This document shows positions 35,263 to 48,143 of a stretch of 64,000 nt of DNA, in pieces (position 1 is the first letter of the stretch; every line of letters starts with the position of its first letter). The stretch is taken from positions 1,302,001 to 1,366,000 of the forward strand of contig NZ_CP113056.1 in the NCBI RefSeq assembly GCF_026625645.1, read 5' to 3'. Both the position numbers and the translations under genes were made by a program. The notes beneath the pieces are model-generated. The model searched no databases. It had not been told where the DNA came from and saw only the letters and a program-made list of their open reading frames with translations. The DNA comes from Ancylobacter sp. SL191. GTDB taxonomy: Bacteria; Pseudomonadota; Alphaproteobacteria; Rhizobiales; Xanthobacteraceae.

Positions 35263-36144
35263 TCAGTCGCGGGTCGGCGTGCCGCCGAGCCGCAACCGCG
35301 CGATCTCGCCCACCGCGCTGAACCAGAGCCGGGTAATGAGGGCGACGATGCGCAGCCGCAGCAGCGGCGGGATGCCTTTGGTACGCAGCATGTGACGGGT
35401 CTCGCCGGCGCAGCGCCGGCTCTCGCGCAGCAGGAGCTGCGGCGCGGTCAGCGGCACCGGCTGCTTCATCCAGCCGCCGCCGACGATGCGCCGGCGCTTG
35501 CGGGCGATATCGTCGAAAGTTGCGCGCACCGGATGGCCGATCACCATGTCGGTGACGAAGGCCAGCGTATAGCCGGCTTCGCGCACGCGCCGGCAGAAGT
35601 CGCGGTCGCCACCGGACTTGAGCTGGGCGTTGAAATTGTCGACCTCGGCCAGCACGCCGCGCGGGCACATGAGGTTCGCCGTCACGAAATGCCCCTGGCT
35701 CATGAACAGGGTCTGGTTGAAGGCGAAAAGCAGCTCGTGCTGGATGCACTCCGGCGCGCCGCCGCCTTCCGGCACGAACAGCTCGATCGGCCCGCCATAG
35801 ATGCCGTGGCCGGGATTGTCGCGCGTCGCCTCCACGGCCGCCTCGATCCAGCGCGGCGCGGGCACGCAGTCGGCATCGGTGAAGGCGATCCACTCGCCCC
35901 TGGCGACCGCGATGCCGGTGTTTCGCGCGCGGTAGGAGCTCGCCACCGGCTCGACCAGCAGGCGGGCCCAGGGGAAGGACTGGATGGCGGCCACCGTGCC
36001 GTCGGTCGACCCGTTGTCGACCACGATCACCTCGTAGCGATCCTTCGGGTAGGTCTGGGCCTCCAGCGCGCGCAGGCATTTGACGATGAGCTTTTCGCCG
36101 TTCCAGACGGGAACGATGACGCTGACGAAAGGCAATTCGCTCAT
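35263..36144 (-). CDS. Glycosyltransferase family 2
   Basis: A 293-aa GT-A glycosyltransferase. It begins VSVIVPVWNGEKLIVKCLRA, has VVDNGSTDGT and the metal motif FTDADC, and a late GGDRDFCRRVREAGY (ED/W-like acceptor segment). One helix near the C-terminus may be membrane-associated (LLRLRIVALITRLWF). The start at 36144 overlaps nothing and lies 22 bp past the preceding stop. It is the last gene of the minus-strand polysaccharide operon; sugar specificity is not known. Confidence 0.87.
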   Translation of the reverse strand: MSELPFVSVIVPVWNGEKLIVKCLRALEAQTYPKDRYEVIVVDNGSTDGTVAAIQSFPWARLLVEPVASSYRARNTGIAVARGEWIAFTDADCVPAPRWIEAAVEATRDNPGHGIYGGPIELFVPEGGGAPECIQHELLFAFNQTLFMSQGHFVTANLMCPRGVLAEVDNFNAQLKSGGDRDFCRRVREAGYTLAFVTDMVIGHPVRATFDDIARKRRRIVGGGWMKQPVPLTAPQLLLRESRRCAGETRHMLRTKGIPPLLRLRIVALITRLWFSAVGEIARLRLGGTPTRD

Positions 36145-36166
36145 GGCATGAGGCCCGTTGGTGATG

Positions 36167-37282
36167 TCACTGCGTGAGGGAGGAGGTGGGCGCGCCGGCG
36201 AGGTGGCGGAAGAACGCGTCGAGCCGTCGGCCGATTTCGTCCCACTCATGCGCCGACAGATCGGGCTCGGTCCCGCGCGGGGTCGCGCGGAGCCAGCGGG
36301 TGAAGTCGGTCACGACCTCGGCGGTCAGCTCGCCCTCATAGAGATAAAGCCACGCGGCGCCGACCTGCGCCTGCAGCTCCACCAGACTGCCGAGCCGCGG
36401 CGCCAGAACCGGGCGCGCGCGCGACAGGGCGTAAAGCGCGGCGCCGCTGTTGAGAATGTCGCGATAGGGCAGGGCGACCGCGTGCGCGGCATCCACGCGC
36501 TGCTCCATGTCGGCATCCGACAGCCGGCCGATGGAAAGCCGGACATGCGTCCTGTCGCCGACCAGCGCCGTGAGATGCTCGGCGAAGTCGGCGCTGTTGC
36601 AACTGCCGCCAATGTCCAGCCGCACCGTTTCCGCCGGCAGCGATCCCACCACTTCGATGAGCGTGTCCGCTGCCTTGTAGCGGCGGAGCTGGCCGATATA
36701 GGCGAGCTTGACGGGCCCCTCATCGAGCGCGGGCAGGGGAACCTGCGGGGCGAGCGCCTGCCCCTTGTAGTGGCCGTGCGTGATCACCGCATAGGCCTTG
36801 CCGCGCAGTTCCGGCCAGCGCCGGTACAGCAATTCGCGGGAGGTCTCCGACAGGAAGATCAGCCCGTCCACCGCGCGGAACAGCCAGCGCCGGGCGAGGG
36901 GAAATGGCCGGTGGTTCTTCTCATGCGGCTCGATGTTGTGAACCACCCAGACGAGCTTCTGGCCGCGAAGCGCGGCGAGAGCGGTCTTGATGGCCAGAAA
37001 CAGCAGCGCGCGAATATTGGTCTTGAGCGAGCGCGCGACGAAGAACTCGTCGGGCCAATGCAGCACGATGATGTCGGCGTCGCGGGGATATTGCCAGAAG
37101 CCGCCGGCAAAACCCCTGACCGCGTGGCCATGGGCGGCGATGGCGTCCGCGAACATGCCGGTAAAAGGGTTCGGCCCATCCCAGGCCGGACGCAGCGCAA
37201 TGGCGAGGCGCCGCGCTTTGCTGGGCGGCACCTTGCCCTGGGAGGGGCGCGGCGCGGGAGAGGCGGCGGGGGCCTGGCTCAT
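36167..37282 (-). CDS. Glycosyltransferase (GT-B fold, GT4-like)
   Basis: A 371-aa protein with the pattern of a GT-B enzyme. The N-terminal part has HWPDEFFVAR and VVHNIEPHEKNHRPF; the C-terminal part has LAYIGQLRRYKAADTLIEV and VALPYRDILNSGAALYALSRARPVLAP, the usual donor-site region. It resembles the plus-strand gene at 46450 in order of motifs (HVHW.., H..P, FFGKIRPYKG, LPF..), so the two are probably paralogues. A Pro/Ala leader of about 20 residues precedes the domain. Linkage and donor are not known. Confidence 0.8.
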   Translation of the reverse strand: MSQAPAASPAPRPSQGKVPPSKARRLAIALRPAWDGPNPFTGMFADAIAAHGHAVRGFAGGFWQYPRDADIIVLHWPDEFFVARSLKTNIRALLFLAIKTALAALRGQKLVWVVHNIEPHEKNHRPFPLARRWLFRAVDGLIFLSETSRELLYRRWPELRGKAYAVITHGHYKGQALAPQVPLPALDEGPVKLAYIGQLRRYKAADTLIEVVGSLPAETVRLDIGGSCNSADFAEHLTALVGDRTHVRLSIGRLSDADMEQRVDAAHAVALPYRDILNSGAALYALSRARPVLAPRLGSLVELQAQVGAAWLYLYEGELTAEVVTDFTRWLRATPRGTEPDLSAHEWDEIGRRLDAFFRHLAGAPTSSLTQ

Positions 37283-37339: not shown

Positions 37340-39184
37340 CTAGGCGACGAACGCGGAGACCGCCTCCTGCGGGGCACCGGACGACGCGTCGATATTGGCC
37401 AGTTCGCGGAACTCGGGGCAGGTCGCCAGCAACTCGTCAAAGGTGCCGGAGGCCAGTACGCGACCGGCCTTGATGAAGAAGATGCGGTCGCAATTGCGCA
37501 CCGTCGACAGGCGGTGGGCGATCATGATGAGGGTGCGGTCGCTCTTGGCATGCTCGATCGCCGCCATGAGGCGGGTCTCCGTCGCATTGTCGAGCGCGGC
37601 GGTCGCCTCGTCGAGAACGAGCACCTGCGGCGTGTAATACAGCGCGCGGGCGATGCCGATGCGCTGGCGCTGGCCACCGGAAAGGCGCACGCCGCGCTCG
37701 CCGACATTGGTCTGGAGCCCTTCGGGCAGGCCACGGACATAATCGGCGAGCTGCGCCGCCTCCAGCGCGCGCCAGACCGCGTCGTCGTCGATCTCGCCTT
37801 CGGGAACGCCGAGCGCGACGTTGCGCCGGATCGAGGCGTCGGTGAGATAGATGACCTGCGGGATGTAGCCGATGAGACGCTGCCAGCCCGGCAGATTCTC
37901 ACGGATGGAGCGCCCGCCCACGGAGATGTCGCCGGCGCTGTACTCCAGAAAGCCCAGCATCACGTCGACGGCGGTGGTCTTGCCCGATCCGGTGGGGCCC
38001 ACAAAGGCGACGGAGCTGCCGGCGGGAATGGTGAGGTTCAGATCCTGCAGCGCCGCCCGCTCCTGCCCCTCATAGCGGAAGGTAACGTCCTTGAAGACGA
38101 TGTCGCCCATGCTCATCGGCTCATGGGCGGCGGTGTCGGTGGGGAGCGGCATGCCCGGCGCGATGCCGAGGGTCTTGTACTCCTTGACCAGATTGTTCAC
38201 GGCCGACAGGTTGGACCGCATGGTCCCGAGCTGGGCGGCGAGCTGGTTCAGTGTCGGCAACATGCGCACGGCGACAGCGCCCAGCATGGCGAGGGTCGGC
38301 ACCACGAGGTCCGGTGAGCGCCCCTGCAGCAGCATGATGAAGACGAGCAGGATGAGGGCGGTAAGGCCCACCGTCTCGAAAACCGGCTTGGACAGGCCCT
38401 GATTGAAGCGAATGGTGCGCTGGGCCGCCTCGCGCCGGTCGGCATGGTGGGAGAATTCGCGGCGAATATCGCCTTCCAGACCGCGCAGGCGCGTGTGCTT
38501 GAAGGAGCCCAGGCCTTCGTTGAGCGTCTGCGTCAGCCGGCGGTTGCGGTCGCTGAACTCCGTGCCGACCCGGTGCAGCCGGTCGCGATGCGCGCGGACG
38601 AACAGAAAGCAGCCGCCCCCCGCCGTCACGCCGAGGATCAGGGCCATGGTGGGGTCGGAGATGACGACCAGGAGGGTCAGTGAGGCCAGGATGAACACCG
38701 CCTGCGCTGAATTCAGCAGCGGCTGCATGTAGTTAGCCACCATCCGGGCCGATTCGCCCATGACCAGATGGGTGAAGTGTGCGGTGTTCTGGCTCAAATG
38801 GAACATGTAGGGCGCGTGCAGATAGGCGGTGAACAGGCGCAGCGCCGTCTCCCCGCCGACAGCGGCCATGAAGCGTGCCTGCACGCGCAGCAGGACGAGA
38901 TTGAAGGCGCCGCGCACCAGAAACAGCCCGATGACGATCGCGCCGCTGACATAGAGCAGCGTCGTCACGTCATGAATGCCGATCCAGTCGAGCCAGGCGC
39001 GCACGCGCGGCATCGCCATCACCTCGGTCGAGCGGCTCATCAGCAGCACATAAGCGGGCACAGCGCCGACCGCGACGAATTCGAGCGCGCTGGACGTGAT
39101 TTGCAGGGCGAGGAGCCCCAGCATCTGGCGCTGCCTCTCCCGGGTCAGCAGACCCCACATCTCGGCCAATCCGTCGATCTTCAT
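37340..39184 (-). CDS. ABC transporter ATP-binding/permease (MsbA/PglK-like exporter)
   Basis: A 614-aa half-transporter. About six helices lie within residues 20-320. The NBD has Walker A GPTGSGKTTAVDVML, signature VRLSGGQRQRIGIARAL, Walker B VLVLDEATAALDN and H-loop IAHRLST. The overall arrangement is that of lipid-linked oligosaccharide flippases and lipid A exporters. Its place between glycosyltransferases and the fusion protein suggests that it flips the product of this locus. Substrate is inferred from context. Confidence 0.9.
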   Translation of the reverse strand: MKIDGLAEMWGLLTRERQRQMLGLLALQITSSALEFVAVGAVPAYVLLMSRSTEVMAMPRVRAWLDWIGIHDVTTLLYVSGAIVIGLFLVRGAFNLVLLRVQARFMAAVGGETALRLFTAYLHAPYMFHLSQNTAHFTHLVMGESARMVANYMQPLLNSAQAVFILASLTLLVVISDPTMALILGVTAGGGCFLFVRAHRDRLHRVGTEFSDRNRRLTQTLNEGLGSFKHTRLRGLEGDIRREFSHHADRREAAQRTIRFNQGLSKPVFETVGLTALILLVFIMLLQGRSPDLVVPTLAMLGAVAVRMLPTLNQLAAQLGTMRSNLSAVNNLVKEYKTLGIAPGMPLPTDTAAHEPMSMGDIVFKDVTFRYEGQERAALQDLNLTIPAGSSVAFVGPTGSGKTTAVDVMLGFLEYSAGDISVGGRSIRENLPGWQRLIGYIPQVIYLTDASIRRNVALGVPEGEIDDDAVWRALEAAQLADYVRGLPEGLQTNVGERGVRLSGGQRQRIGIARALYYTPQVLVLDEATAALDNATETRLMAAIEHAKSDRTLIMIAHRLSTVRNCDRIFFIKAGRVLASGTFDELLATCPEFRELANIDASSGAPQEAVSAFVA

Positions 39185-39216: not shown

Positions 39217-41988
39217 TCAGGCCCGCCGGTGTCGCAGTTTGTTCAGCACCTTGGCCAGGGAGCGCCGGACAAGGCCCATCCAGCGTTCGCGCAGCAGCCA
39301 GGCGAGGATCAGCCCGCCGGCCACGGCCTCGGTGTGCAGCGTCCCGGCCGGCGATGCAAGGAGCGTTCCGGCGGCGAGCACGATGAAGCTCACCGCGCGC
39401 ACGGTGTTGCGCGGCACCTTCTCCTTGTCGCCGCCCGCGCGGTAGACCGCATAGGTCATCCACATCGCCACGGTCTGCGCCAGCAGCAGCGCCGCGCCGA
39501 GCGCGAGGCCGGGGAGCAGCAGCAGCGGCGCCAGCAGCTTGGCGGACTGCAGCAGCGGATAGAGCAGAATGCGCCGCGGCTCCGGCAGCCGGTTATAGCC
39601 ATAGAACAGCCCGCGCACTGCCAGCAGCGCCGCCAGCCAGAGGCCGGCGAACAGGGCGAAGACACCCGTATCGAGCGTGCCGCCGGTGGCGCGCAGGCTC
39701 GCCAGCAGCGCGCCGACAAGGCCGAGCGCGATGGCCCAGCTCCACGCATGGCGGGCGAGCGGGAAATCGCGGAAGCGCGCGGCCATCGGCGTCAGCGTCG
39801 GGTTCGCCTCGCGCGCGGCGGCGACCTGATCGTTCTCGAAATAGCCGATCTCGTAGACCGCGAGCATGGAGACGAACAGCGCCAGCGCCGCGCCGAGCCA
39901 CAGCCAGGGCGCGCCGGCGAGCGGCAGGGTCGCGAGCAGCAGCAGCGGCAGCTCGACGAACAGCGTCTGCTTGCGCACATAATAGGCGTTGTATTTCGCC
40001 AGCGCCGTGTAGCGCATCGGCAGGTAGAAGGATTCCTCCGCCGCGCTCTTCTCGCCGACCGGCTCGACCAGCAGCGGGATCTTCACCTGGTCGAGCAGGT
40101 CGCGGTCGTCCTCCGAATCGGTCACCAGCGCGGCGGTGGCGACGACGCGCGGCGGGAACAGCCCGCCAATGAGCCGCGCCTTGCCGTGCCGCAGCGTCTT
40201 CAGCACGCGCGGGTGCAGCTGGAACGGCACGCAGGCGCGCCGGCAGCTCTCCCAATGCGTGCCCTTCACCAGCGGGCCGATCAGCATGTCGAAGCCGAAG
40301 GAGACGATGACCGTGCGCTCGGCCGGCACGACTTTCAGCGCCTGCGCCAGCTCATGCGCGCCGCGCGCGGCGAACAGCGCCGGGGCGTTGCGGCGCCAGC
40401 GGGCGAGGTTCCACGGCATGAGCAGCGTCACCGCGACCACGGCGGCGTAGTCGCGGAAGCGGAACCAGTGCTTGCCGAAGAATTTGCGCCACGGCAGGAA
40501 GCCGCGCACGAAGGCGAGGATGAGGCTGACCAGCAGCGCCGGGCGGGCCTGCCGCAGATATTCCTCGGTGGTGTTGCCGGCGAACAGCGTGTGGTCGAAA
40601 TCGAGGAACACGGTGCGCCCGGACGGCCCGGCAAGCGCAGCGCGGACCTCCTCCGGCGTCACCGGCGGCAGCGGGAAGCCGGCCGCGCCGGACGGTTCGC
40701 GCACCACCTCCTCGCGCCGGAAGGCGGGTGCCGCCTCGGCCGACGGGGCGGCGGGCAGCGCGCTTTCCAGCAGCGCGACCGCGTCAGCGACGCCGCGCGT
40801 GCCGTCCTGCATTGACGGGTGGCAGATGTAGTAATCGCGGATCAGATAGCCGCTCAGCGCGTCGAAGCGCGCGCGGCGGGCCTCCAGCTCGGCGGGTGTC
40901 GCGCTTGCGGCCAGCTCGATGCAGCGGGCGAGGTCGTCCGGCCCCTCCGGCTCGAAGAAGACGCCCTTGCCGCTGAACGGATCGCGGACCAGATGCACCA
41001 GCGGCGTGCCGAGCCGCACCGCCATCACATTGAGCGAGCCGCCCATGCTGACCGCGAGGTCCGCCTCGCGCAGCAGTTCGAGCGGCGGGGTGTCGACGAT
41101 GCGGGCATTGGCCGGCAGGTCGTCGACATCGGTGAGGTGGGTGATCGAGGGATGCGCCTTGATCAGCACCTGCGCCTGCGGGCAGGCCAGCGCGACGGCG
41201 CGGGCCGCTTTGAAGCTGTCGGCGACATGCGGCATGTAGAGCGGCCGGTCGGGATTGCCCGCCGGGAAGGTGCCCACCGTCGCGTCATCCGTGGTGAGGA
41301 AGGCGATGAGGCGGGCATCGGCGCCCGCCGCGTGCGTGCCCTCTGGCGCCGTGCGGGGCGCCTTCTCGGTGATGCGGGCGAGGCTTTCCAGCGGCCAGTT
41401 CTCGACATAGGCCGCGCCGGCCCGCGCCGCCTCCGGCCAGTCGGCGGCCGGCAGCAGTTCTTCCAGCGCGACGCCCGCCACCGCGCTGGCGCCGAGGAAG
41501 CCGCTGCGGTCGAGATGATAGGTCGCGGGCAGCAGGCCCCGCTCCAGCGTCGCGGTGGCGATGCCCGCCGCCCGGCACAGCGCATAGGCGACGCCGGTAT
41601 GCGGGGCATAGGGATTCCAGGCGACGAACAGATCGGGCCGCGTCGCCTCCAGCACCTGCTCGCTCGCCGCCCGCAAGGCCGCGTAGAGCGCGGGCGCCTG
41701 GCTGGCGGGAGCGCCCTGCCTGGCCAGATGCGCGATCCGCCCGCTCCACAGCGCGGCGTCGACCTCCAGCGCGCTGAAACGCGTCGGTCCGCTCGCGGGA
41801 TAGAGCCCCGCGAGCTTGTGCAGCGGCCAGGGCAGAGGCAGGCACTGCGCCTCCCGCCCCGCCAGCGGCTCGGGCGCCCACAGCACGACACTATGCCCGC
41901 GCGCTTCGAGCTGGCCGATCAGGTCACCGAAGAACTGGCCGACCGGTCCCCGCGGCGCGAGGAGGGTGGAGAGGAGGAGACGTGCCAT
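39217..41988 (-). CDS. Three-domain fusion: capsule-type glycosyltransferase, HAD hydrolase, UbiA-like membrane domain
   Basis: A 923-aa protein. Residues about 1-415 look like a GT-B capsule glycosyltransferase related to Capsule_synth/KpsS proteins: ATLERGLLPATYHLDRSGFL, LIKAHPSITHL and VSMGGSLNVMAVRLGTPLV. Residues about 455-640 are a HAD domain with FLDFDHT (Asp463, Asp465), VSFGFD, a Lys region and TDSEDDRD. The rest has about eight helices and a polar YEIGYFENDQ motif (Asn719-Asp720) like UbiA prenyltransferases. It lies 32 bp before the ABC gene. I know of no named family for this combination. The glycosyltransferase and UbiA calls are moderately sure, HAD is firm. Confidence 0.7.
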   Translation of the reverse strand: MARLLLSTLLAPRGPVGQFFGDLIGQLEARGHSVVLWAPEPLAGREAQCLPLPWPLHKLAGLYPASGPTRFSALEVDAALWSGRIAHLARQGAPASQAPALYAALRAASEQVLEATRPDLFVAWNPYAPHTGVAYALCRAAGIATATLERGLLPATYHLDRSGFLGASAVAGVALEELLPAADWPEAARAGAAYVENWPLESLARITEKAPRTAPEGTHAAGADARLIAFLTTDDATVGTFPAGNPDRPLYMPHVADSFKAARAVALACPQAQVLIKAHPSITHLTDVDDLPANARIVDTPPLELLREADLAVSMGGSLNVMAVRLGTPLVHLVRDPFSGKGVFFEPEGPDDLARCIELAASATPAELEARRARFDALSGYLIRDYYICHPSMQDGTRGVADAVALLESALPAAPSAEAAPAFRREEVVREPSGAAGFPLPPVTPEEVRAALAGPSGRTVFLDFDHTLFAGNTTEEYLRQARPALLVSLILAFVRGFLPWRKFFGKHWFRFRDYAAVVAVTLLMPWNLARWRRNAPALFAARGAHELAQALKVVPAERTVIVSFGFDMLIGPLVKGTHWESCRRACVPFQLHPRVLKTLRHGKARLIGGLFPPRVVATAALVTDSEDDRDLLDQVKIPLLVEPVGEKSAAEESFYLPMRYTALAKYNAYYVRKQTLFVELPLLLLATLPLAGAPWLWLGAALALFVSMLAVYEIGYFENDQVAAAREANPTLTPMAARFRDFPLARHAWSWAIALGLVGALLASLRATGGTLDTGVFALFAGLWLAALLAVRGLFYGYNRLPEPRRILLYPLLQSAKLLAPLLLLPGLALGAALLLAQTVAMWMTYAVYRAGGDKEKVPRNTVRAVSFIVLAAGTLLASPAGTLHTEAVAGGLILAWLLRERWMGLVRRSLAKVLNKLRHRRA

Positions 41989-42018: not shown

Positions 42019-42288
42019 CTAGTGACGGGTGACCATCAGCAGCGCGTCGCTGGTGCGGGCCGCCTCGCGCGCCGCCCGCCATGAGGCTTCCAGCCACCAG
42101 CGGTCCGTCCCCTCGAAAAGGTCGGGATTGGCGCCCTGCGGCTTGTTGAAATGGATCCAGTGAAAATAGTTGAAGAGGCCGTAGCGCTGATAGCCGTACA
42201 CGTTGACAGAGCCATGATGGCCCGCGCGGCGGGTGACGTTCTCCAGCAGGGGCGCGAAGGCCCGGTGAGGAACCAGCGCTTCCGTCAT
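42019..42288 (-). CDS. Hypothetical protein, translationally coupled
   Basis: An 89-aa protein with no recognised family. It is rich in aromatic and His residues (YGYQRYGLFNYFHWIHFNKP, TDRWWLEASWRAAREAART), with no signal or membrane segment. Its ATG overlaps the stop of the KdsB-like gene by 4 bp (ATGA), which strongly supports translation. It could be a remnant of a larger enzyme or a small partner protein; no homologue comes to mind. Confidence 0.6.
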   Translation of the reverse strand: MTEALVPHRAFAPLLENVTRRAGHHGSVNVYGYQRYGLFNYFHWIHFNKPQGANPDLFEGTDRWWLEASWRAAREAARTSDALLMVTRH

Positions 42289-43043
42289 AGCTGGATGTTT
42301 CTGGCTTGAACGATCTCGATCACGCGGTGCAGGTCTTTCGGCGTGTCGACCGAGAGGGTCTCGTCGGATTCCACCACCACCATCTTCAGGGGAATGCCGC
42401 GCTCGATGAAGCGCAGCTCGTTCACATCCTCGACCTGCTCGACCGGGCCGCGCGGTGTCGAGGCGAAGAAGGCCAGCGCCTGCCGATTATAGATGAGCAC
42501 GCCGACATGCTTGTAATAGTCGAAGGAAAGGCTCGACTTGGGATACGGGATCGGGCTGCGCGAGAAGAAGACCGCATTCATGTCCGGGCCCCAGACCACC
42601 TTGATATTGGTGGAGTCGAGAACTTCCGGCGCGGATTTGATCCTGCTGGTCAGATTCGCGACATAAGGAGCATCGGCCGGCCATTCGGTCGGAATGATCT
42701 TTTCGATGACCCTGTAGTCGATGAGCGGTTCATCGCCGTTCACAACGATGAACAGATCGCCGTCGATCTTCTGCGCGACCTCGTTGACCCGCTCGGTGCT
42801 GGTGCCGTGCTTGTCGGAGGTGACGATGTAGGGGATGCCGCGCTCGCGGCAGACCGCCTCCACCCGTTCGTCGTCCAGGGCCACGATCACCTGGCTGATC
42901 CGCTCGCTCATGGCGACGCGCCGGTAGACCCATTCGATCATGGGAGCGCCGGCGATCATCGCCAGCGGCTTTCCCTGATAACGGCTGGAATTATAGCGGG
43001 CGGGAATGACCGCCACTACTCGCGGGTCGCGCGCGACCGACAT
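42285..43043 (-). CDS. KdsB-like CMP-ulosonic acid synthetase (cytidylyltransferase)
   Basis: A 252-aa nucleotidyltransferase. It begins VVAVIPARYNSSRYQGKPLA, with VNGDEPLIDYRVIEKI and the C-terminal ETLSVDTPKDLHRVIEIV, all as in 3-deoxy-manno-octulosonate cytidylyltransferase; it activates an ulosonic acid with CTP. KdsB is usually a housekeeping LPS gene placed elsewhere; this copy is within a surface-polysaccharide operon directly after a NeuB-like synthase, so its substrate could be Kdo or a different ulosonic acid. GAGGG lies before the ATG at 43043. Confidence 0.85.
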   Translation of the reverse strand: MSVARDPRVVAVIPARYNSSRYQGKPLAMIAGAPMIEWVYRRVAMSERISQVIVALDDERVEAVCRERGIPYIVTSDKHGTSTERVNEVAQKIDGDLFIVVNGDEPLIDYRVIEKIIPTEWPADAPYVANLTSRIKSAPEVLDSTNIKVVWGPDMNAVFFSRSPIPYPKSSLSFDYYKHVGVLIYNRQALAFFASTPRGPVEQVEDVNELRFIERGIPLKMVVVESDETLSVDTPKDLHRVIEIVQARNIQL

Positions 43044-43065
43044 GCTTCGCCCTCGTGTCCGTGTA

Positions 43066-44604
43066 TCACCCCGCCTTGCGGCGGTATTTGTGGTGCTCGC
43101 TTGAATTGACCTTCTTTTCTTCCTCGCCGACGATGCGCTCCGCCTCGCGGATGCGGTCGACATATTCCTTGAAGGCCGGCGTGGTGAGGTCGACGGCGAC
43201 GGCGTCGAAATGCGCCCACTCGGTGTTGCCGAGCTTCACATGCTTCTCGACCATGCGCGCGCCCGCCGCGACCGCCAGCGCCGAGCCGAGCCAGCCGAAA
43301 TCATGGCTCGAATAGGCCGGCATGAGGTGCGGGTATTGCTTGGACAGCTCGTGATAGTGCCGGACGATACCGACTCCGCAATCTTCCAGCGGCGTGGGAT
43401 AGGCCGAGTTCGCCTGCATCAGCACCAGCTTCTCGCAGGCGGTGAAGGTCTCCAGCACCCAGCGCTCATAGGCGTCGTCGGTCATGCCGGTCGAGAGCAC
43501 CACCGTGCGGCGGTAGTTCTTCGAGACATGGTCGAGATAGTCGCGGTGCTCGGAAATGGTCGAGGGCAGCTTGATGATCGGCGGGTCGAATTCCTGCAGG
43601 AACTCGAAGGAGGGTTGGTCCAGCACCGAGACGAACCAGCCGATATTGAGGTCGCGGCACAGCTTGTCGACGAAGGCGAAATCGTCGCGCGAGAGTTCGA
43701 GCTGCTGGCGATACTCGCCGAAGGTCTTGCCGAAGGGCGAGACATAGGGCGCCGAGAGCTGCTCGGGCGCATAGAAGCTGGCGACATCGCGCTTCTGCAG
43801 CTTGATGTAGTCCGCCCCCGAGGCCTTGGAGGAGCGGATCATCCGCTCGAGCCGCAGCCGGTCGCCGAAATGGTTGGTGGTCAGCTCGGCGATCACCGAG
43901 ACCTTGTTCGGGCGCCCGTCATTGGCCGGCTCCAGCTGGCGGCCGAACAGGTGGTTCAGCTCGGTCGGCGAGAGCACGCTGAAGGGCTTCGCGCCGACAT
44001 GCTTCACCTCCAGCTCCGATCCCTTGAGGATGTAGAGCGCGTTGATGAAGAAGAATTCCTGCATGGTGAAGACGAGGCGCCGGTCATTGTCGGTCGCCCC
44101 GGTGAAGTCGCGCTCCACCCGCTCGCTATAGGCGTGCCCGGCCTCGAAGCTGAAATCGAAGCCGACCATGTAGACGGTTTGCCGGCGCCCGCGAATGGCG
44201 GCGACCTGGCGGGCCACCTGCAGCGCGGTCATGAACAGCACATCCTCGATCTTCAGCACGCCCGCCTGGAAGCGCTGCATCATCAGATCGGTGGATTCCT
44301 GCGTCAGCGGCACATGCTCGACATGCGCCACCTCGCGCTGCGGCGCGGTGAAATCGGCCGAGGTGAGATAGGCGCGCGAGCGGTAGCCATTGGCGGCGAT
44401 GCCCGCCTTGGCCCAGTCGGCATGGAACACGGTGATGTCGGCCGGGGCGATCTGCTCGGCATCGTTCAGCGCGATGACCAGCGCCGAGGAAAACACCTGC
44501 GGGTCGATCAGATCGGCCGAGGGGCCCTTACCCAGGATGAAGATCGTATCGGTGGCGTATGTCGAAGCGATATTTGCGATCAGGTCGGAGATAGTGTCCG
44601 CCAT
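43066..44604 (-). CDS. NeuB-like ulosonic acid synthase with N-terminal MptE/MAF-like domain, SAF domain absent
   Basis: A 512-aa fusion. Residues about 17-225 look like a MptE/MAF (DUF115-type) Rossmann domain: FILGKGPSADLID, ALNDAEQIAPADITVFHADW and VYMVGFDFSFEAGHAYSE. Residues about 233-505 are a NeuB barrel with AELTTNHFGD (Glu240), YIKLQKR, YSSHDFG (His434) and VEKHVKL (Lys454), so catalytic residues are present. The protein ends KYRRKAG where the C-terminal SAF (antifreeze-like) domain normally begins. The start overlaps the upstream gene by 77 bp. Product may be a sialic-acid-like or other nonulosonic or octulosonic acid; not decided by sequence. Confidence 0.82.
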   Translation of the reverse strand: MADTISDLIANIASTYATDTIFILGKGPSADLIDPQVFSSALVIALNDAEQIAPADITVFHADWAKAGIAANGYRSRAYLTSADFTAPQREVAHVEHVPLTQESTDLMMQRFQAGVLKIEDVLFMTALQVARQVAAIRGRRQTVYMVGFDFSFEAGHAYSERVERDFTGATDNDRRLVFTMQEFFFINALYILKGSELEVKHVGAKPFSVLSPTELNHLFGRQLEPANDGRPNKVSVIAELTTNHFGDRLRLERMIRSSKASGADYIKLQKRDVASFYAPEQLSAPYVSPFGKTFGEYRQQLELSRDDFAFVDKLCRDLNIGWFVSVLDQPSFEFLQEFDPPIIKLPSTISEHRDYLDHVSKNYRRTVVLSTGMTDDAYERWVLETFTACEKLVLMQANSAYPTPLEDCGVGIVRHYHELSKQYPHLMPAYSSHDFGWLGSALAVAAGARMVEKHVKLGNTEWAHFDAVAVDLTTPAFKEYVDRIREAERIVGEEEKKVNSSEHHKYRRKAG

Positions 44605-45250
44605 AGCTTGCCCCCTCCACGTCGATGTCACAGCCGTGCTCGCGCGCCAGCATGAGACCCGCAAGAATGTCCCAGCTCTTGGCGCCGGCCGGATTTGAGA
44701 ACCCCGCCAGCGCCCCGCGCGTGACGTTGAACAGATTATAGGCCGCGCAGCCCATGATCCGCGCTTCCCCGGCCCGCGCCACGCGCGCGGCCAGCTCGTC
44801 GGTGATCGAGGAGGAGAAGCCGATGATGCGCGAGCGCTGATAGGGGATGGAATCCCCGCTCATCAGCCGGTCGCCGAGCTCCGGCAGGAAGATCGCGCTG
44901 CCCTGGTGCGCCCCGTCGCGCCAGAGGGAGAGCGAGACGCCCCATTCCTTGAAGCCGGAGCAGAAATTCTCGGTGCCGTCGATCGGGTCGAGCACGGCGG
45001 TCCAGCCCGCGGCGGTCTCGGCCGCCTCGCCCTCCGCGCCGGGCGCGTAGCTCTCTTCGCTGATGAAGGTGAGGCCCGGCAAATGCTGGGCGAGATAGGC
45101 GTGGACGTTCTTCTCCACGCGCAGATCCGCCTCCGTCACCGGGCTGCCATCGTCCTTCCATGTGATGTTCCGGCGCATGGAGAGGATGGTCGGCAGGTCT
45201 TCGGTTATCAGGCCGCCGACCGAATGAAGTAGATCGTTCACGATTGTCAT
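44528..45250 (-). CDS. Inositol monophosphatase / CysQ family phosphatase
   Basis: A 240-aa Mg-dependent sugar or nucleotide phosphatase. Metal motifs are complete: EESYAPG (Glu), LDPIDGTENFCSGF and the late AKSWDILAGLMLARE (Asp). GSPVTEADLRVE also fits. It is the first gene of the polysaccharide operon; with the following synthase and CMP-sugar synthetase it could remove the phosphate from an ulosonic acid phosphate. Start at 45250 is preferred on alignment to relatives; 45280 is possible and neither has a strong ribosome site. Its 3' end overlaps the synthase by 77 bp. Confidence 0.85.
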   Translation of the reverse strand: MTIVNDLLHSVGGLITEDLPTILSMRRNITWKDDGSPVTEADLRVEKNVHAYLAQHLPGLTFISEESYAPGAEGEAAETAAGWTAVLDPIDGTENFCSGFKEWGVSLSLWRDGAHQGSAIFLPELGDRLMSGDSIPYQRSRIIGFSSSITDELAARVARAGEARIMGCAAYNLFNVTRGALAGFSNPAGAKSWDILAGLMLAREHGCDIDVEGASYGGHYLRPDRKYRFDIRHRYDLHPG

Positions 45251-45473
45251 TGGTTTTGCCGCAGTGCGATATAAGGTCATTTACACGGTCGCGGGCGGGC
45301 GTCCAAGGCGCTTTTACCGATTTGTGGTATCAGCGGGCACCTGGCCGCTCCCGGCGGCCGGGGCGGCGCGGCGGCTGGCTATCGAGTTTGTGTAAAGGGG
45401 GCATCCCCCATCTGGCGGTCTTCTGCCGGTGTGCGATGTCGGGATGTAACGACGCTGGGCGGGATTGTGAAGA
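45251..45473. promoter_or_regulatory. Divergent promoter region of the polysaccharide locus
   Basis: These 223 bp separate the eight-gene minus-strand operon from two plus-strand glycosyltransferases, so both transcripts should start here. It has no ORF that I accept. No clear -35/-10 pair is seen by eye. It lies 2.7 kb from mucR, a known class of exopolysaccharide regulator. Confidence 0.5.
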
Positions 45474-47684: not shown

Positions 47685-48143
47685 TCAGGCGGCCTTCTTG
47701 CGGGTGCGGGGCTTCGGCGCCGGGGCGACGGGCTTCTTGCGCTGCTGGCCGAGGCCCATCTTCTTGGCGAGGTTGGAGCGCGCTTCCGCATAGCTCGGCG
47801 CGACCATCGGATAGTCGTTGGGAAGGCCCCACTTCGCCCGGTATTCCTCGGGCGTCATGTTGTACTTCGTGCGCAGATGGCGCTTCAGCGACTTGAACTT
47901 CAGGCCGTCCTCAAGGCAGATGATATATTCCGGCGTCACCGACTTCTTGACCGGGATCGCCGGCTTCAGCACTTCTTCCACCGCTGCCGGCGCCGGGGCC
48001 GTGAGGCGAAGCAGAGCGCCATGCACCTTGGCGATGAGATCGGGGAGCTCTGTCGCCGGGACGCTATTGTTGCCGACAAAGGCGGCAACCACATCAGCGG
48101 TAAGGCCGAGATAGTCGACCGACGAGCTTTCCTGTTCCGACAT
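47685..48143 (-). CDS. mucR: MucR/Ros family transcriptional regulator
   Basis: A 152-aa zinc-finger regulator. The core [41 protein letters not shown] is the MucR domain at about residues 68-112, with an N-terminal oligomerisation region and a basic C-terminal tail ([10 protein letters not shown]). Members act as H-NS-like silencers of A+T-rich promoters and control exopolysaccharide, motility and cell cycle genes. The second ligand is Asp (C-x2-D) and the place of the last His has Lys, so zinc binding may be altered. GGAGGAAAT lies before the ATG. Its position beside the polysaccharide locus fits regulation of it. Confidence 0.93.

Follow-up and report, generated by a model that had tools for sequence, protein, structure and literature searches.

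A predicted nonulosonic-acid module in Ancylobacter sp. SL191 with an overlapping phosphatase/synthase gene pair and an exchangeable cytidylyltransferase

Introduction

The chain leading from mannose-6-phosphate (Man-6-P) through Kdn-9-phosphate to 2-keto-3-deoxy-D-glycero-D-galacto-nononic acid (Kdn) and on to its cytidine monophosphate (CMP) derivative, CMP-Kdn, is known experimentally; in the sections of the source drawn on here, the Prymnesium synthase converts only Man-6-P out of seven sugars and Bacteroides possesses a Kdn-9-phosphate phosphatase (PMC6200933). The three-step logic of this Bacteroides thetaiotaomicron and Prymnesium parvum route, as those sections give it, is the one we propose for three adjoining genes of Ancylobacter sp. 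SL191, which encode an inositol monophosphatase (IMPase)-family phosphatase, a two-domain predicted ulosonate synthase and a KdsB-like cytidylyltransferase. They lie within a 64,000-nucleotide stretch of DNA (contig NZ_CP113056.1, positions 1,302,001 to 1,366,000), the whole of which is referred to below as the window. The B. thetaiotaomicron and P. parvum route employs a HAD-type phosphatase and a synthase that is not known to carry a Maf/GT42-like fusion. A second point of comparison is the KL1/KL2 capsule of Serratia marcescens, which contains Kdn and N-acetylneuraminic acid (Neu5Ac) at about 20:1 and depends on a two-domain NeuB (PMC9000132). In the parts of that paper used here, the Serratia neuA-neuB genes resemble the window module in placing a two-domain NeuB beside a cytidylyltransferase, in this case for a bacterial Kdn capsule, but the extra domain is described as a COG1082 sugar-phosphate isomerase/epimerase, unlike that of the window, and the main text never uses the word phosphatase (PMC9000132). 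The open-access literature, searched by titles and the beginnings of abstracts and with subscription papers and preprints mostly outside its reach, returned no account of a paired IMPase and fused synthase. We know of no described ulosonate route with an IMPase-type phosphatase.

Our analysis suggests that a surface-glycan locus in the window includes a module for nonulosonic-acid synthesis by a phosphorylated route, and that the trio probably makes a sialic-acid-like cell-surface sugar. The NeuB domain of the synthase would condense phosphoenolpyruvate (PEP) with an aldose phosphate, most likely Man-6-P; the ulosonate phosphate so formed would most likely be Kdn-9-phosphate. Its phosphate would be removed by the co-translated IMPase, at the step taken by HAD phosphatases in known routes, and a PF02348 enzyme, here a KdsB-like protein replacing a PseF-like one, would make the CMP-sugar for local glycosyltransferases. 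Conversion of Man-6-P to Kdn-9-phosphate is the simplest route because the pair includes a phosphatase. The Maf/GT42-like N-terminal domain of the synthase may bind the CMP-sugar or a related nucleotide, acting either in feedback sensing or as a transferase. We regard this phosphorylated-route explanation as a whole, from PEP condensation through IMPase dephosphorylation to CMP activation, as somewhat favoured. That it represents a further nonulosonate route, with a sialyltransferase-like CMP-sugar-binding fusion, an IMPase, Kdn or an undescribed sugar as product and interchangeable CMP-synthetases, is advanced more tentatively.

Results and discussion

The three genes follow one another on the minus strand in the order IMPase, synthase, KdsB-like that an earlier reading of the window from its letters alone (the original prediction) had given, and their Pfam matches lie far over the cut-offs. 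The IMPase-family phosphatase of 240 aa (44528..45250; PF00459, 94.1 bits against a cut-off of 27) is taken to start at the ATG at 45250, with a longer start in the list of open reading frames at 45280. The synthase of 512 aa (43066..44604) probably starts at 44604 rather than at the 20 codons longer frame start at 44664, judging from its sequence relatives, since the homologues listed are about 512 aa long (nearly all 499-528 aa). Its 5′ end overlaps the 3′ end of the IMPase gene out of frame by 77 bp (44528..44604, minus strand). The C-terminal part of the synthase is a NeuB-type TIM-barrel domain (43069..43920, minus strand; NeuB PF03102, 137.9 bits against 22.1), preceded by a fused N-terminal domain of residues 1-228 (43921..44604, minus strand). 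The KdsB-like cytidylyltransferase, a 252-aa member of a divergent subfamily (42285..43043, minus strand; CTP_transf_3 PF02348, 134.4 bits), is taken to start at 43043. The original prediction had described the synthase as NeuB-like and had missed both the fused 228-aa domain and the gene overlap.

The IMPase/synthase pair is a tightly linked module core, with the overlap and the fused domain as its unusual features. When one genome per species was scanned with two barrel peptide patterns, 47 synthase loci came to light; they do not amount to a census and are distributed over Alpha-, Beta- and Gammaproteobacteria, Cyanobacteria, Actinomycetota, a Deinococcales metagenome-assembled genome (MAG), a Balneolales MAG and others. 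Within the locus DNA examined, an IMPase relative lies near the synthase in 44 of the 47. Overlaps of the two genes measure 56-95 bp in 39 of these 44 relatives, which come from several phyla; the genes abut in three (overlaps of 4, 1 and -2 bp) and are separated by 0.85 and 3.5 kb in the remaining two. An IMPase tail of the type RHRYDLHPG is missing in all five relatives without the long overlap, so that its conservation elsewhere probably reflects the synthase reading frame. The EE, DPIDGT and WD motifs, which we take to be the metal ligands of the IMPase, are kept in 43 or more of the 45 family members aligned. Divergence of the IMPase also tracks that of the synthase (Spearman 0.725 over 44 rows, with 0 of 500 permutations as high), a correlation to which shared ancestry and species history contribute and which leaves out L031, where the IMPase is cut by a contig end. 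The pair recurs in other genomes, in which the original prediction had proposed a search for the trio, while the third gene often belongs to another cytidylyltransferase group. In Nesterenkonia pannonica (L050:10001-11536) the synthase is in pieces, frameshifted or degraded, and the locus DNA contains no IMPase match.

A more distant form of the module occurs on plasmids, among them ones of E. coli and Enterobacter. In three records of a plasmid collection the synthase of this form shares 44-45% identity with that of the window, and two of the records, annotated plasmids of E. coli and Enterobacter, have the IMPase and synthase genes and a gene of cytidylyltransferase type next to polysaccharide export genes; these are capsule-type loci. 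Among 5426 complete E. coli genomes, four have the E. coli form, that of the query itself included, three times on a plasmid and once on a chromosome (at 87%).

Of 8000 sequences scored, 962 are homologues of the synthase at E <= 0.001. The best 120 of the 962 share 60-92% identity with the query along 88-97% of its length, and nearly all of those that bear a name are called N-acetylneuraminate synthase or SpsE, with one 'hypothetical protein'. Invariant residues are present across 26 aligned synthases and the best structural matches are NeuB and PseI. Neither equivalog model is reached: the synthase scores 117.3 bits with N-acetylneuraminate synthase TIGR03569 (cut-off 399.65) and 102.6 bits with pseudaminate synthase TIGR03586 (cut-off 340.25). 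Compared with PseI, NeuB and SpsE synthases, it has an additional N-terminal domain and no detectable SAF domain (no match at E 0.1), the chain stopping 15 residues past the Pfam NeuB match. A C-terminal SAF domain is usual in NeuB. A solved synthase of 290 aa is on record (6ncs).

Residues 1-228 of the synthase have no Pfam match over cut-off. When realigned to the top 1000 Foldseek chains, the predicted fold of this domain resembles the Maf flagellin glycosyltransferase and the GT42 and GT29 sialyltransferases. With the domain alone as Foldseek query, no match is better than E 0.001 and dehydrogenase- and epimerase-type folds rank first. Profile comparison yields Maf-like and CST-I-like matches at 30% and 25% probability, which are motif-level matches only, and the profile finds nothing meaningful among PDB sequences (best E 1). 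MptE-like (Maf-type) neighbours at L034 and L048 score 31.1 and 28.7, under the cut-off of 34.6, and were not used as evidence. Polysialyltransferase-family genes (PF07388), which belong to a CMP-sugar transferase family, score over cut-off beside four module copies (L006, L018, L039 and L043); together with a partial GT29 match at L027 they speak for the proposed CMP-sugar route. A hexapeptide-transferase-type gene recurs beside the module (a 10-locus blastp cluster with one member checked).

The third gene of the trio is exchangeable. Cytidylyltransferases, detected by similarity to nine seed proteins and assigned to six groups by best seed, occur in the locus DNA of 40 of the 47 loci; in 29 the gene follows immediately downstream in the same orientation as the synthase. 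Six of the genes were checked by Pfam. The KdsB-like group comprises the window, L049, where the gene is adjacent, and L009, where it lies ~3 kb upstream of the synthase; L038, assigned to another group, has an extra KdsB-like gene ~6 kb downstream. In the five other groups the single member checked per group has PseF as its best NCBIfam match, under cut-off. On the synthase tree the group switches 21 times, nearly as often as at random: the mean for shuffled labels is 23.2, and these are as low in 25 of 200 cases. This is a quick tree of 45 rows, 41 of them labelled, with 12 of 42 inner branches drawn open; it leaves out L047 with its single domain, L050, whose gene is in pieces, and L051, whose identity is 27%. 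The pairing of a KdsB with a NeuB, on which the original prediction had laid stress, is not the defining oddity; the core is the IMPase/synthase pair, in a module whose cytidylyltransferase is exchanged freely.

A recent exchange is visible in the comparison of the window with Ancylobacter radicis (L005), whose DNA matches window positions 34.0 to 54.6 kb in order, with unmatched gaps. The gaps are largest near 35.2-36.2 kb and at 45.2-47.6 kb, the latter occupied in the window by two other glycosyltransferase genes. The IMPase-synthase DNA is 88% identical. At 42248-43056 the window carries the KdsB-like gene in place of two stretches of L005, a PseF-like gene and the 5′ three quarters of a methyltransferase gene. 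The presence of the PseF-like gene in the same place points to a takeover of the activating step by the KdsB-like enzyme from a PseF-like one, which does not by itself prove that the same sugar is activated. A second very recent exchange is found in Asticcacaulis, where L006, L039 and L043 have near-identical synthases (end branches of ~0.005-0.011) followed by cytidylyltransferases of differing groups.

The 89-aa frame that follows the KdsB-like gene (42019..42288, minus strand), beginning on its stop codon (ATGA), was considered as an unrelated small gene. This is ruled out: the frame is what remains of the C-terminal part of a class I methyltransferase. It aligns over 74 aa, at 80% identity, with residues 241-314 of an L005 protein of 315 aa that matches Methyltransf_23. 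The remnant may mark a lost glycan methylation. Longer methyltransferase relatives adjoin the module in L005, L010, L013, L015, L017 and L027 (a blastp cluster, Pfam-checked for L005, L010 and L017).

Such free exchange leads to a different explanation, in which the pair is a platform making one constant intermediate and the exchanged cytidylyltransferases activate differently decorated derivatives, together a new family of ulosonic acids. The number of group changes on the tree is in keeping with it, as are the recurrent methyltransferases and the hexapeptide-transferase-type gene beside the module. Capsule loci do recombine, though, and exchange alone requires no change of sugar, and we consider a platform of this kind highly improbable.

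Precursor enzymes were searched in 47 genomes, namely that of the window (G000, complete in one contig) and those of 46 loci from L005-L050, the genome of L051 being left out; two of the 47 are without the pair, Actinoplanes with its single-domain synthase and N. pannonica with its synthase in pieces. G000 has no match at E 0.001 to Epimerase_2 (PF02350), the hydrolysing 2-epimerase of the Neu5Ac and legionaminate pathways, to NanE, or to PseG (TIGR03590) of the pseudaminate pathway. Epimerase_2 is missing in 21 of the 47 genomes (G000 and 20 of the 46 others), and NanE and PseG each score over cut-off in five of the 47. All three are missing over cut-off in 15 of the 47 genomes and in 14 of the 45 with the pair, or in 13 of these 45 if any match at E <= 0.001 counts.

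Several findings weigh against the phosphorylated route. The nearest solved synthases, NeuB and PseI, use unphosphorylated sugars. In Actinoplanes aureus (L047:9968-10840) the synthase is a barrel alone, of 290 aa and 61% identical, and the locus DNA examined has no match to the IMPase or to the N-terminal domain. Epimerase_2 is present in 26 of the 46 other genomes, where other routes are accordingly open, and the absence of precursor enzymes is firm for G000 only, since most of the genomes are drafts or MAGs. GT29 among the neighbours is confined to one locus: a blastp cluster of five proteins had indicated it at four loci and Pfam confirms only L027 (PF00777, 51.4 bits with only 51 residues aligned), with no match for the other four proteins, from L028 (two genes), L029 and L032. 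The free exchange of cytidylyltransferases might also reflect a module that supplies several sugars.

One alternative is an ordinary Neu5Ac, legionaminate or pseudaminate route from free or uridine diphosphate (UDP)-linked N-acetylhexosamine, with the IMPase employed elsewhere, for example in nucleotide-phosphate recycling. The structural matches to NeuB and PseI and the occurrence of Epimerase_2 speak for it, and the IMPase also matches CysQ-type models, far under cut-off. G000 and 13 more of the 45 pair genomes nevertheless lack Epimerase_2, NanE and PseG over cut-off, and the conserved overlap of the IMPase gene with that of the synthase argues for a joint step. We consider the ordinary route unlikely. 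A place for the IMPase in a sulfation or 3′-phosphoadenosine 5′-phosphate (PAP) recycling route also seems less likely, although no search aimed at sulfotransferases was made.

The N-terminal domain offers a further alternative, as the HPPK and thiamine pyrophosphokinase (TPK) folds fit it equally to GT42 and GT29, a finding which also counts against the proposed CMP-sugar-binding role. The domain could then be a kinase or pyrophosphokinase that phosphorylates the sugar before condensation, one protein thus carrying out both steps, with the IMPase removing the phosphate again. Such a kinase is, in our judgement, improbable.

The remaining adverse points concern 3-deoxy-D-manno-octulosonic acid (Kdo). 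The window KdsB-like protein stands under the KdsB equivalog cut-offs (133.3 against 155.2 for TIGR00466, and 145.8 against 281 for a second model), whereas another copy in G000 passes both (205.7 and 400.9). This other KdsB, at C1:2143529, is 33% identical to the window protein, and the window gene is thereby ruled out as the housekeeping KdsB; the sole-copy case that the original prediction had named as its possible undoing does not apply. Elsewhere in G000 a KdsA gene over its equivalog cut-off adjoins a KpsF/KdsD-family gene, which is over the TIGR00393 cut-off and not over that of the KdsD equivalog, and arabinose-5-phosphate (Ara-5-P) is, on this gene content, probably at hand. A third PF02348 match in G000 reaches 34.1 bits within a 485-aa frame. 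No KdsC is found over cut-off in G000 despite its KdsA, KpsF/KdsD-family and KdsB genes, so that the Kdo-8-phosphate phosphatase of this lineage is not evident. With NF003952, a Kdo cytidylyltransferase subfamily model with a cut-off of 193, both the window protein (234.9) and the other copy (254.5) are over the cut-off, which, like the probable supply of Ara-5-P, counts against a Kdn-type product.

These data allow for a Kdo or Kdo-variant route in which the synthase would condense Ara-5-P with PEP to Kdo-8-phosphate, the IMPase would act as the Kdo-8-phosphate phosphatase and the KdsB-like enzyme would make CMP-Kdo for a capsule or O-chain. Such a route is consistent with a KdsB-like third gene whose best solved relative is KpsU and which passes NF003952, with the KpsF/KdsD-family gene and with the need for another phosphatase where KdsC is missing. 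The synthase is nonetheless NeuB-type, KdsA and KdsB are already provided elsewhere in G000, and the cytidylyltransferase belongs to a group other than KdsB in 38 of 41 labelled loci. In Nesterenkonia halophila the pair is present and KpsF is missing over cut-off, in a test run on 10 of the 46 genomes that is over cut-off in only three of the 10 (3 of 14 controls); neither Nesterenkonia nor Actinoplanes is among the three. The four module copies beside polysialyltransferase-family genes also speak against Kdo. The third protein has the family and fold of KdsB/KpsU CMP-Kdo synthetases, but its subfamily, with the signatures NGDEP and ED[IV]NE[LI]R, replaces QGDEP and LEQLR with NGDEP and NE[LI]R. 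The replacing motifs are present in 17 of 17 subfamily rows and the canonical ones in the five solved KdsB/KpsU chains shown, two of which are one protein. QGDEP and LEQLR presumably line the Kdo site. The 120 KdsB-like relatives listed include two Clostridiales-type MAG records (P0173 and P0233); to our knowledge, Gram-positives are not known for Kdo. A sample of 384 other genomes of the class contains no member of the subfamily at E 1e-60. Taken together these points make a Kdo route quite unlikely. The choice that the original prediction had left between a Kdo variant and an undescribed sugar is thus shifted, the Kdo variant being disfavoured and the reading of Kdn or an undescribed sugar kept, while its sequence of synthesis, dephosphorylation and CMP activation agrees with the evidence.

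If the phosphorylated route holds, the annotations of these synthases as N-acetylneuraminate synthase or SpsE would be misleading, given that known precursor enzymes for that function are missing over cut-off from 14 of the 45 pair-bearing genomes. Bacterial Kdn-type sugars would be commoner than thought, IMPases would be seen to take part in making ulosonates, and the interchangeable CMP-synthetases would form a natural set for studying the evolution of sugar activation.

The other genes of the glycan locus offer candidate partners for the module. A 923-aa putative glycosyltransferase (39217..41988, minus strand), comprising a putative glycosyltransferase-like N-terminal part, a HAD-like segment (21.2 bits, under the cut-off of 27) and a hydrophobic-looking C-terminal part, may be the user of the activated sugar. 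It has no NCBIfam match, its first 420 aa find weak UDP-glycosyltransferase matches in a PDB search (best E 0.012), and a syntenic relative in L005 is 59% identical. An MsbA/PglK-like ABC exporter (37340..39184, minus strand; PF00005, 90.7 bits; TIGR02203, 288.8, under the cut-off of 602) is the probable glycan flippase. Beyond it on the minus strand lie a GT4-like glycosyltransferase gene (36167-37282), with Pfam glycosyltransferase matches under cut-off, and a GT2 glycosyltransferase gene (35263-36249; GT2, 97.5 bits). On the other side of the trio, a ROS/MUCR transcriptional regulator (47685-48143; PF05443, 172.2 bits) adjoins the glycan locus.

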